The notes beneath the pieces are model-generated. The model searched no databases. It was not told the origin of the DNA and worked only from the letters and a program-made list of their open reading frames with translations. Shown here piece after piece: positions 6,185-58,366 of a stretch of 64,000 nucleotides of DNA. The position numbers and the translations under genes are program-made. Numbering within the stretch: position 1 is the first letter of the stretch; each line of letters opens with the position of its first letter. The stretch spans positions 1 to 64,000 of the forward strand of contig JAJZRG010000016.1 of NCBI GenBank assembly GCA_021802825.1. The letters are read 5' to 3'. The stretch comes from Chloroflexota bacterium (GTDB taxonomy: Bacteria; Chloroflexota; Limnocylindria; Limnocylindrales; CSP1-4).

Positions 6185-7252
6185 ATGACGACTGCCGTCC
6201 AGGGATCGAGATCCCGCCTGCCCGTGTTGGACCGTCGCTGGCTCACGCCGATCGGCGTGGTCCTGGCGTTGGTCGGCGCGTTCCTGCTGATGTATCTCGG
6301 CAGCTGCTCGACGGTGGGCGCCGGCACGTGTGACCGCTTCTCGCAGGGCGAGGATCAGTTCATCAACGCCCTGACCGTGGGCGGGATGTACGCCCTGATC
6401 GCACTGGGCTACACGATGGTCTACGGCATCATCGAGCTGATCAACTTCGCCCACGGCGAGGTGTTCATGTGCGGCTCGTTCGTGTCGTGGGGCCTGCTGA
6501 CGAACCTCGGCTTCACCGGCCCCATCAGCGATCCCCTCCTGCTGGCCGGGGTGCTCGTGCTGGCCTTCCTGGTCTCCATGGTCGTCATGGGCGTCGTCGG
6601 CGTGGTCATCGAGCGGCTCGCCTACCGGCCGCTGCGCAATGCGCCGCGCCTGACCCCGCTGATCACCGCGATCGGCGTGTCGTTCATCCTCCAGAACATC
6701 ATCTTCGTGGGGATCAGCAACTCCTTCGTCAACTCCCCGCAGATCATCCCGAACCCACTGCTCGAGCTGGGCGCGATCCACATCCGCCTGATCAACCTGT
6801 TCGTGATCGTGCTGACCCTGGGCCTCATGACGGCCCTCCACCTGTTCATCAACCGTACCTCGCTCGGGCGGGCGATGCGGTCCACGGCCATCGACCGTGA
6901 CGCAGCCCAGATCATGGGCGTGAACATCAACTCGACGATTGCGCTGACGTTCTTCATCGGCTCGGCACTGGCGGGTGCCGCCGGCGTGGTCCAGGGCCTG
7001 TACTTCGGCGTGACGCAGTTCCAGATCGGATTCCAGGGCGGCCTCAAGGCGTTTACCGCCGCGGTCCTGGGTGGCATCGGCAACACGACGGGCGCAGCCG
7101 TTGGCGGCTTCATCATCGGCTTCATCGAGGTGCTCGCGAGCACCTATGGGTACGGCCGGTGGAGCGAGGCCGCGGTCTTCACCACACTCGTCCTCGTCCT
7201 CGTTTTCCGGCCGACGGGCATCCTCGGCCAGCAGCTGGCGGATCGGGCATGA
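6185..7252 (+). CDS. livH: Branched-chain amino acid ABC transporter permease LivH
   Basis: A 355-residue inner-membrane permease of the LivH family. After an N-terminal helix (residues 21-40) and a short external loop containing two cysteines, the family's conserved start GGMYALIALGYTMVYG and the INFAHGEVFM motif are evident, followed by about seven further hydrophobic helices. The coupling-helix region (GRAMRSTAIDRDAAQIMGV) contacts the ATPases. It pairs with LivM to form the channel. The extra N-terminal helix and ~50-residue extension exceed the usual ~300 residues. The stop overlaps the livM start (ATGA). Confidence 0.92.
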   Translation: MTTAVQGSRSRLPVLDRRWLTPIGVVLALVGAFLLMYLGSCSTVGAGTCDRFSQGEDQFINALTVGGMYALIALGYTMVYGIIELINFAHGEVFMCGSFVSWGLLTNLGFTGPISDPLLLAGVLVLAFLVSMVVMGVVGVVIERLAYRPLRNAPRLTPLITAIGVSFILQNIIFVGISNSFVNSPQIIPNPLLELGAIHIRLINLFVIVLTLGLMTALHLFINRTSLGRAMRSTAIDRDAAQIMGVNINSTIALTFFIGSALAGAAGVVQGLYFGVTQFQIGFQGGLKAFTAAVLGGIGNTTGAAVGGFIIGFIEVLASTYGYGRWSEAAVFTTLVLVLVFRPTGILGQQLADRA

Positions 7253-8433
7253 GCGCAGCGATGAACCGCGCGGCGGGACCGCGCCAAACCCTCGGCCTCC
7301 GAAGGTTCATGGGCCGTCACCAGTCCCTGTCCATCCTGGTGCTCGCGATCATCGTGGCGGTTGCGCTGCCGCTGGTTGTCACCCTGCCGATCATCAGCGG
7401 CTTCGGCATCCAGAAGGACTGGGTCACCGGCTTCGCGCAGGCGGGCGTGTTCGTCCTCCTCGCGCTGGGCCTCAACGTCGTCGTCGGCTTCGCGGGCCTG
7501 CTCGACTTGGGCTACGCCGCGTTCTTCGCCATCGGCGCCTACACGTTCGCGTACGCGGCGTCGGGCTTCACCGGGCTCGACTTCCCGTTCTGGCCGATGC
7601 TGCTGGTCGGCGCCGGCGTGGCCGCGATCTTCGGGGTACTGCTCGGTGCGCCGACGCTCCGTCTGCGCGGCGACTACCTAGCGATCGTGACCCTCGGGTT
7701 CGGCGAGATCGTGCCCGTGGTGTTCAACAACGCCGACACGTACACCAACGGCACGAACGGCATCACGGGCATCAGCCAGCCCAGCCTCTACGGCCTGGCC
7801 GGGATCTACGGGTTCGGGTTCACGAACCCGTACCTGTACTACATCACGGTCTTCGTGATCATCACCCTCGTGATCATGCTGCTCTATCGCCTGCAGGACT
7901 CGCGCATCGGCCGGGCGTGGGTCGCCATCCGGGAGGACGAGCTCGCGGCCGCGTCGATGGGCATCAACACCGTCACGACCAAGCTGCTCGCATTCGCGAT
8001 TGGCGCCTCCACCGCCGGCTTGGCGGGCGTGTTCTACTCGGCCAAGCTGTCCTCGGTCACGCCGGACCAGTTCAAGTTCGACGTCTCGTTCACCGCCCTC
8101 GCCATGGTCGTCCTCGGCGGCATGGGCAACATCTGGGGCGTCGCCGCTGGCGCGCTGATCGTGTACGAACTGCAGAGCCAGGGCCTCAAGCAGCTGGACC
8201 AGTTCATGCATGCGCTGAACTTGCCGGCCATCGCGCTCGGCCCGCTGGTGATCAACCTGAGCCAGATCAACTACATCAACTTCCAGAACCTGCTCTACGG
8301 CCTGGCGCTGGCGCTGATGATGCTGCTGCGACCGGAGGGGCTGTTCCCGAGCCGCAGACGGCGCCGGGAGCTCCATGAGGAGCCTGCGAGCGACGAGCTG
8401 GCCTCTCCCGATGCAACAGGAGAGCGGGAATGA
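7249..8433 (+). CDS. livM: Branched-chain amino acid ABC transporter permease LivM
   Basis: A 394-residue permease of the LivM family, partner of LivH. It has hydrophobic segments throughout, the conserved GLNVVVGFAGLLDLGYAAFFAIGAYTFAY block near residue 80 and the EAA-like coupling region GRAWVAIREDELAAASMGIN. The ATG overlaps the livH stop by four bases, and the hydrophobic N-terminal helix begins near residue 25, consistent with this start. The C-terminus is a charged cytoplasmic tail (RRRRRELHEEP). Confidence 0.92.
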   Translation: MSAAMNRAAGPRQTLGLRRFMGRHQSLSILVLAIIVAVALPLVVTLPIISGFGIQKDWVTGFAQAGVFVLLALGLNVVVGFAGLLDLGYAAFFAIGAYTFAYAASGFTGLDFPFWPMLLVGAGVAAIFGVLLGAPTLRLRGDYLAIVTLGFGEIVPVVFNNADTYTNGTNGITGISQPSLYGLAGIYGFGFTNPYLYYITVFVIITLVIMLLYRLQDSRIGRAWVAIREDELAAASMGINTVTTKLLAFAIGASTAGLAGVFYSAKLSSVTPDQFKFDVSFTALAMVVLGGMGNIWGVAAGALIVYELQSQGLKQLDQFMHALNLPAIALGPLVINLSQINYINFQNLLYGLALALMMLLRPEGLFPSRRRRRELHEEPASDELASPDATGERE

Positions 8434-56511: not shown

Positions 56512-56793
56512 TCACGAAGGCGATGGCCGAGCCGCTGACGGGGACAAGGACTGCAGCACGCTCGGGCTGGCCGCAGGCGGAGATGAGGGCAAGGGCGCGA
56601 TCAGGCTCGGGCTCGCCGACGGGGCGGGGGCGGGTGTCGGGCTGGGTGACGGCGTCGGAATGACGATCGGGGAGGGCGTCGGCTGAACGGGTGGCGGCGG
56701 AGGGGGCAGGAGCGCTACGGCACCACCGACGACGAGACCCCCCACGAGGATCCCAAGGACTAGCCCGGATCCGATTGCCACTTTCGTCCCCAT
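56512..56793 (-). CDS. Small membrane-anchored Pro/Ser-rich protein
   Basis: About 93 residues from ATG 56793: a single hydrophobic helix (VAIGSGLVLGILVGGLVVGGAVALL) followed by a run of prolines and a Pro/Thr/Ser tail with PTPSPS and APSASPS repeats, probably a wall-spanning or surface stalk. No family recognised. The start is supported by TACGCT seven bases upstream on the minus strand. It is divergent from two sortase-fold genes that have similar Pro/Ser linkers, so a shared cell-surface role is plausible. Confidence 0.55.
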   Translation of the reverse strand: MGTKVAIGSGLVLGILVGGLVVGGAVALLPPPPPPVQPTPSPIVIPTPSPSPTPAPAPSASPSLIAPLPSSPPAASPSVLQSLSPSAARPSPS

Positions 56794-56862: not shown

Positions 56863-57615
56863 ATGCCGAACGCCGCCCGAACCCGCCGCCTCCCGACCGC
56901 CCTGGCGGCGCTCGGGATCCTCGGGGCCCTGGCCCTCGTCGTTGCCGGCTCCGCCAGGCCAGTTGCCCCGTCACCGCTGGCAAGCGGCTCGGTCGTCACG
57001 CTGGCCGTCTCACCCTCGCCGTCCCCGTCGCTCGAGTCGTCGCCGGACCCCACCACGGACGTCTTCGCGTCGGACTCGCCCGCCCCCAGCGGTTCGGCCT
57101 CGCCGTCCCCGTCGCCCACCCGGGCGACGTCAACCGGGAAGGCAGTCACCACTCGTGTGGTCATCGCGGCCCTGGGGATCGACCTGGCCGTGGTCAAGTC
57201 ACCGCCCGCCGATGTCTACCCGTACTGCAACGTGGCGATGTACTTGGGCAGCCCGCTGGGCCAGCCCGGCAGCAAGCGGGCAACCTACATCTTCGCGCAC
57301 GCGCGGGACGGCATGTTCGGCCCCATCTACGAGCTCACGATGGTCAAGCGGACTCCGAACAACATGAAGGGCATGCTCGTGGACGTGTACACGAGCGATT
57401 CGATGAGGCACACCTACAGGATCGCGAAGGTGCTGCCGCACCAGCTGTCGCTCAAGGCACCCTTCGCCGTCCGTTCGGACCAGCTCTGGCTCCAAACCTC
57501 GGAGGGCCCCCGGGGGACGCCGGGCAAGACGCAGGTGGTGGCCAATCCAGTGTCAGTGACACCGGCCGACTACGCCGCGTCCCACCCCAGGGCGCAGCGC
57601 GTCCGCTGTGGCTAG
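56863..57615 (+). CDS. Sortase-fold protein with Ser at the catalytic Cys position, copy 1
   Basis: A 250-residue exported protein: N-terminal membrane anchor (about 13-30), a Ser/Pro/Thr linker (50-95), then a sortase-like beta barrel from residue 97 (VVIAALGIDLAVV). TYIFAHARDGMFGPIYEL contains the His (146) of the sortase active site, but the strand that should read TLxTC reads LWLQTSEGPRG, giving Ser213 in place of the cysteine; Arg217 may be the third residue. A conserved YPYCNVAMY adds a cysteine elsewhere. By architecture it is close to class E/F sortases; whether it is a serine-dependent transpeptidase or a binding protein is open. 47 codons of linker resemble those of its paralogue. 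Confidence 0.7.
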   Translation: MPNAARTRRLPTALAALGILGALALVVAGSARPVAPSPLASGSVVTLAVSPSPSPSLESSPDPTTDVFASDSPAPSGSASPSPSPTRATSTGKAVTTRVVIAALGIDLAVVKSPPADVYPYCNVAMYLGSPLGQPGSKRATYIFAHARDGMFGPIYELTMVKRTPNNMKGMLVDVYTSDSMRHTYRIAKVLPHQLSLKAPFAVRSDQLWLQTSEGPRGTPGKTQVVANPVSVTPADYAASHPRAQRVRCG

Positions 57616-57622
57616 TGGGCCC

Positions 57623-58366
57623 ATGCGCAGCCTGACCCGCTCCCTCCGAGCCCTGTTCGCGAGGCTGGTCCCCGCGGTCCTGACCGCCGCGGGCGTCGTC
57701 ATCGTCACCGCGGGGTTGCTCGCGTACGGCGATCCCTCCACCGCCGGCGCGATGCTGTCGCCGTCCGATGGCGTTCCAGGGCCGATGCCGTCGCTGTCGC
57801 TCGACCTGCCGTCGATTGCCCCCGCCCAGTCCGGTTCATCCGGCTCTCCTGCGCCCTCCGCGTCCGGCGATGCCGTCGTCACGCGCGTCGCCGTTCCGGC
57901 GCTGCGGATCGACCTTCCGGTCGTGGCGGGTCCCCCGGATGGAACGTACCCGTACTGCAATGTGGCGATGTACTACGTCGATCCCAGCCTGGGCCAGCCC
58001 GGCTCGGGCAAGCCGACATACCTGTTCGCCCATGCGCGCGATGGGATGTTCGGGCCGATCTACCGCCTGACCATCCAGCTCGGGACGCCGAACAAGATGG
58101 TCGGCATGCTGGTCCAGGTGTACACGAGCGACAACAGGCTCTACCAGTACGAGATCACCGCGGTCTACCCCCACCAGCTGAACATGAACCGCGCGTTCGA
58201 CGGCAAACAGGAGGAGCTGTGGCTCCAGACCTCCGAGGGCAAGCACGGGACGCCGGGCAAGACGCAGGTCCTCGCCATGCCGCTGTCGGTGTGGAGCGTG
58301 GACCCCAAGCTCGCCCACCCCGCCGTCCCCCAGCAGCTCGTCTGCCCCGACGCCCCGCCGGGCTGA
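57623..58366 (+). CDS. Sortase-fold protein with Ser at the catalytic Cys position, copy 2
   Basis: A 247-residue tandem paralogue of the preceding gene (ATG 57623; a GTG 15 bases upstream, overlapping the previous gene, is possible). Membrane anchor (about 15-35), Ser/Pro linker, and a sortase-like domain with PTYLFAHARDGMFGPIYRL (His137) and LWLQTSEGKHGTPGKTQV, where Ser204 replaces the catalytic Cys. YPYCNVAMYYVDPSLGQPGSGK is shared with copy 1. The substitution in both copies argues against a sequencing error. Confidence 0.7.
   Translation: MRSLTRSLRALFARLVPAVLTAAGVVIVTAGLLAYGDPSTAGAMLSPSDGVPGPMPSLSLDLPSIAPAQSGSSGSPAPSASGDAVVTRVAVPALRIDLPVVAGPPDGTYPYCNVAMYYVDPSLGQPGSGKPTYLFAHARDGMFGPIYRLTIQLGTPNKMVGMLVQVYTSDNRLYQYEITAVYPHQLNMNRAFDGKQEELWLQTSEGKHGTPGKTQVLAMPLSVWSVDPKLAHPAVPQQLVCPDAPPG

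Follow-up and report, generated by a model that had tools for sequence, protein, structure and literature searches.

The locus studied here raises the question of whether two adjacent sortase-like genes, both of which encode serine in the place of the catalytic cysteine, still specify working enzymes. Sortases fasten proteins to bacterial cell walls; they are cysteine transpeptidases by definition, and they serve both as drug targets and as protein-ligation tools. The two genes are located in a window of 64,000 nucleotides (the whole stretch of DNA that was analyzed) from a Chloroflexota genome of 3.93 Mb that is 90% complete. A first-pass annotation of this window had described the genes as encoding tandem sortase-fold proteins without the catalytic cysteine, which could be either serine-type transpeptidases or non-catalytic surface binders. 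On balance, we favor the reading that the pair represents tandem serine-type sortases that are derived from His-Cys-Arg ancestors and most likely still perform acyl transfer, and we hold this preference with modest confidence.

The tandem genes, their fold and their active-site residues

Both open reading frames were recovered as annotated (Table 1). They are separated by 7 nt, with the ATG at 57623 being a more likely start of gene 2 than the GTG at 57608. The gene 1 product consists of a hydrophobic segment at approximately residues 10–30, a Pro/Ser/Thr linker and a domain from residue 97, and the gene 2 product of a membrane anchor at approximately residues 10–35, a linker and a domain from residue 87. 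The C-terminal domains are about 155 residues each, and the N-terminal hydrophobic segments have a mean hydropathy of 2.3 across 19 residues in both proteins. From this layout, each product is expected to sit on the outer side of the membrane, tethered by its N-terminal anchor through a flexible linker. The dN/dS values relative to the nearest relative are 0.29 for gene 1 and 0.24 for gene 2, indicating that both are real genes. The pair is preceded by nuoN and followed by a divergent corA-like gene.

Table 1. Positions in the window of the two sortase-fold genes, their putative functional residues and the neighboring gene.
Feature	Position	Strand	Comment
Pro/Ser-rich membrane-anchored protein	56512–56793	-	93 aa; ATG at 56793, end at 56512; N-terminal hydrophobic segment
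Gene 1	56863–57615	+	Open reading frame; ATG start; 250 aa; secreted sortase-fold protein
Gene 1 Cys122 (YPYC)	57226–57228	+	Proposed disulfide partner Cys249 (57607–57609); the only two cysteines of the protein
Gene 1 His146 (FAHARDGMF)	57298–57300	+	Catalytic position; 71/71 in the family
Gene 1 Ser213 (TCG; LWLQTSEG)	57499–57501	+	Sortase Cys position; Ser in 71/71
Gene 1 Lys222	57526–57528	+	Sortase Arg position; Lys in 70/71
Gene 2	57623–58366	+	Open reading frame; 247 aa; N-terminally anchored sortase-fold protein
Gene 2 Cys112 (YPYC)	57956–57958	+	Proposed disulfide partner Cys241 (58343–58345); the only two cysteines of the protein
Gene 2 His137	58031–58033	+	Catalytic position; family alignment
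Gene 2 Ser204 (TCC)	58232–58234	+	Sortase Cys position; family alignment
Gene 2 Lys213	58259–58261	+	Sortase Arg position; family alignment

Variation in architecture was observed among the relatives. Orthologues of gene 1 at loci L006, L008 and L009 have lipobox-like N-termini (VGAC, VAGC) where the window copy reads VAGS, and the anchoring mode of gene 1 may therefore have changed. Locus L041 (2413–3825) encodes two serine-sortase domains in one chain with a lipobox-like N-terminus. At loci L042–L049, an extra secreted N-terminal domain of approximately 110 aa replaces the membrane anchor and linker; this domain had no Pfam match in L044.

The Pro/Ser-rich anchored protein that had been noted beside the pair looks real, its reading frame being preserved in the nearest relative only (L035, 80% over 60 aa). 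It has neither a sorting signal nor an LPxT-like C-terminus, and was rejected as a sortase substrate on this ground and because it is conserved solely in that relative.

The assignment of the pair to the sortases was supported by profile, fold and family. The Pfam Sortase model (PF04203, cut-off 26.6 bits) matched gene 2 with 31.5 bits and gene 1 with 19.1 bits, which is below the cut-off, and gene 1 was placed via its 51% identity to gene 2. A phmmer search with gene 2 against the PDB sequences gave no match, and NCBIfam gave no sortase model. The AlphaFold (AF2) model of the gene 1 domain had a pLDDT of 83 and a pTM of 0.82; that of gene 2 was weaker (pLDDT 67) and gave the same answer as to the fold. 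The PDB matches listed for both models were sortases without exception. The best match to the gene 1 model was 5hu4, with a Foldseek E-value of 5e-8, a Z-score of 16.1 (VIA) and an rmsd of 2.9 Å over 138 residues. With regard to classes E and F, the SrtE structures shared the top ranks with those of class A, and the SrtF structure 5uus scored lower (Z 13.7). All sortases are said to have a His-Cys-Arg active site (PMC13257024). The pair thus consists of sortases by fold and descent, yet fails the definition in the literature.

In both copies, the histidine of FAHARDGMF is kept and the serine of LWLQTSEG takes the place of the cysteine, as the annotation had indicated. To this we add that a lysine (GKTQV) in both proteins aligns with the catalytic arginine. 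Searches recovered relatives from 23 of the 41 near genomes and, class-wide, from 146 of 177. An alignment of 71 domains of the same type as the window pair (pairwise identity: median 49%, minimum 22%) showed that His, Thr and Ser are each present in all 71 domains, and Lys in 70. Both TCN and AGY codons are used for the serine, which argues that serine itself is maintained. Across all 160 aligned sortase domains that were collected, the nucleophile site is occupied by either Ser or Cys and never by another residue. The earlier argument that a serine in two copies implies selection is weak on its own, since the copies are paralogues, and it gains its force from the family-wide conservation and the use of both codon classes. 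Chance or decay as the source of the serine is ruled out by the family conservation and the dN/dS values.

Serine and cysteine lineages in the class

Several other sortase lineages were identified in the class. The sequence triad was His-Ser-Arg in all 24 members of lineages f4 and f3, and in nine members of the C62 group, the tenth being His-Cys-Arg. The seven members of lineage f5 all have His-Ser with a glutamate in the Arg column, so that a basic residue at this position is not universal. Some genomes of the class also encode a paralogue, here called b (LQTCVG...R), which is canonical His-Cys-Arg in 17 of 17 cases. Scattered copies of a canonical cysteine sortase paralogue (L176–L192; YRWGCAG...LQTCVG..R) have an apparent extra cysteine pair.

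The best 30 sortases from other Chloroflexota classes were all His-Cys-Arg, as were the nearest relatives outside the class of the window genome, which makes cysteine the ancestral state. A sortase tree was computed with the nucleophile column removed, and required at least three nucleophile changes, the simplest scenario being two changes from Cys to Ser and one from Ser to Cys, although long branches in this tree leave the details uncertain. The latter change is placed at L052 (1744–2619), which has a cysteine (LTLETC), is nested among the serine copies of the C62 group at 97/87 and has the same LPRTD neighbor. Judging from the alignment and the tree, L052 represents an apparent return to cysteine.

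The gene order nuoN-[Ser sortase]-corA-MFS is common to the family of the window pair, and nuoN and the MFS gene also flank the f5 genes. The conserved order indicates that the serine sortase gene is old and vertically inherited. As far as sampled, the serine-type sortase family is confined to a single class of the Chloroflexota.

Sorting signals and the probable function of the serine-type sortases

Sortase substrates are recognized from a textbook sorting signal, which consists of an LPxT motif, a membrane helix and basic residues. In all ten C62 loci, a secreted protein that we take to be Ig-like (this family name and "ice-binding-like" below are presumptive readings of the sequence alone) is encoded directly upstream of the sortase on the same strand, and ends with LPxT(S/D), a hydrophobic helix and basic residues. 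The motifs are LPRTD, LPSTS, LPNTS or LPRTS, and they adjoin the nine serine enzymes and the single cysteine enzyme alike. This group includes a third sortase from the window genome (L050, G000:C62, approximately 6984–8433, minus strand; LTLQTSTSY, His-Ser-Arg). The gene immediately upstream encodes a secreted Ig-like protein that ends with LPRTD(T), a helix and RR, and this protein is very probably sorted by the enzyme. Elsewhere, an ice-binding-like protein ending with LPSTST was found alongside one f4 sortase, LPSTST proteins not linked to the sortase locus were found in the f4 genomes G127 and G142, and an LPPTG protein was found at the cysteine-type outgroup locus L233.

A search for paralogue b, in which the positive controls were detected, gave no match in nine genomes (G000, G021, G099, G100, G046, G056, G127, G142 and G143); for the window genome, G000, this absence rests on the 90% complete assembly. 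All nine genomes encode sorting-signal proteins, and the only other cysteine sortase in them was the divergent L150 in G099. The case for active natural serine sortases is thus built on the substrates that adjoin the C62 enzymes and on the several genomes with sorting signals that show only serine sortases. The latter provides the strongest support for a functional natural serine sortase.

The result for the window pair itself was different. The search for LPxTG-like substrates that the annotation had proposed was successful for the third sortase, with its LPRTD neighbor, but no sorting-signal substrate was found for the His-Ser-Lys pair, so that its catalysis is something we infer. The sorting-signal profile gave no match in most of the searched genomes that have the His-Ser-Lys type and lack the C62 type. 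The exception is G016, which has a match and also a cysteine sortase; this genome had been considered as a His-Ser-Lys-only genome with an LPSTST protein, and was withdrawn when the cysteine paralogue was detected. The Gram_pos_anchor model (PF00746) gave nothing above the cut-off in the window genome, and scores weakly in nearly all controls.

As serine-type sortases, the window proteins would bind an extended LPxT-like signal, in which the serine, activated by His and/or Lys, would attack the peptide carbonyl. An ester acyl-enzyme would form and then be resolved by an amine or by water. Replacement of Cys184 by Ser in SrtA of S. aureus makes activity fall dramatically (PMC4827206), and a working serine sortase must therefore carry compensating changes. 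A broader version of this hypothesis is that natural serine sortases, the His-Ser-Lys type included, are present throughout the class after two separate changes from Cys to Ser and one return, and that LPxT(S/D) has replaced LPxTG as the sorting signal. We propose this version tentatively.

Of the choice between transpeptidase and binder that the annotation had left, the His-Ser-Arg paralogues beside sorting-signal substrates favor catalysis; the His-Ser-Lys pair itself may be either. The fold may have been retained on the cell surface for non-catalytic binding, either to extended peptides or to wall components, with Ser, His and Lys lining the site. This explanation agrees with the missing substrate beside the window pair and the few sorting signals in genomes with only the His-Ser-Lys type, with the replacement of Arg by Lys (and by Glu in f5), with the double-domain protein L041 and with the lipoprotein-like N-termini of some gene 1 relatives, binding proteins often being lipoproteins. 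The dramatic fall in activity in the S. aureus mutant points in the same direction. However, a mere binding function is disfavored by His, Thr and Ser being invariant in domains of down to 22% identity, by a site that tolerates only Ser or Cys, by the apparent return to cysteine in L052 and by the pairing of His-Ser-Arg relatives with sorting-signal substrates. We consider loss of catalysis the less likely of the two readings.

Hydrolysis is less probable still, and we regard it as a minor candidate. Here, water would resolve the ester acyl-enzyme, and surface proteins or wall peptides would be released or trimmed rather than attached. The combination of Ser with Lys or His is reminiscent of the Ser-Lys hydrolases, and the lack of a substrate signal near the window genes is consistent with this function, whereas the complete sorting signals next to the homologues with linked genes fit anchoring.

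Of the 71 family domains, 70 have both the YPYC cysteine and a C-terminal cysteine, a pair that the other lineages lack. The two probably form a disulfide, as judged from this co-occurrence, and the bond could keep the C-terminal tail close to the groove, at its N-terminal edge. The annotation had named the YPYC cysteine as a residue that might occupy the active site; although this cysteine is nearly invariant (70/71) and, according to the alignment, is situated immediately ahead of the strand lining the sortase substrate groove, a role as a relocated nucleophile is highly improbable given its companion in the C-terminal tail, its absence from the f4, C62 and f5 serine sortases and the invariant Thr-Ser at the original site.

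Comparison with known sortases

A literature search, with most subscription journals outside its reach, identified no publication on a natural serine sortase. If the preferred reading of the pair as serine-type sortases is correct, a serine version that is present across a class and has linked substrates would mean that the sortase fold can swap its nucleophile and stay functional. Such enzymes should work without a free thiol, and would offer a natural experiment on what the scaffold needs for an exchange of Cys for Ser. If inactive, the proteins would represent the first conserved pseudo-sortase family known to us.

The window pair shares the beta-barrel, the position of the histidine, the threonine before the nucleophile and the N-terminal anchor with the sortases of classes A–F (PF04203), for example SrtA of Listeria monocytogenes (5hu4) and SrtE of Thermobifida fusca and Streptomyces. 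It differs from these in having Ser for Cys, Lys for Arg and a C-terminal tail that is probably disulfide-bonded. The His-Ser-Arg sortases of C62 and f4 in the same class are homologous to the pair and have the serine nucleophile site in common with it, but they have kept the arginine and lack the cysteine pair, and those of C62 adjoin LPxT(S/D) proteins. Paralogue b is a Pfam sortase that resembles the pair in having LQT before the nucleophile, whereas it is canonical His-Cys-Arg, has a scattered distribution and was not detected in the window genome. Finally, the laboratory mutants SaSrtA C184S and T. fusca SrtE C222A (9j0t) display, like the window pair, a sortase fold without the catalytic cysteine. 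These mutants are artificial, and activity is strongly reduced in C184S, whereas the serine in the family of the window pair is natural and conserved.
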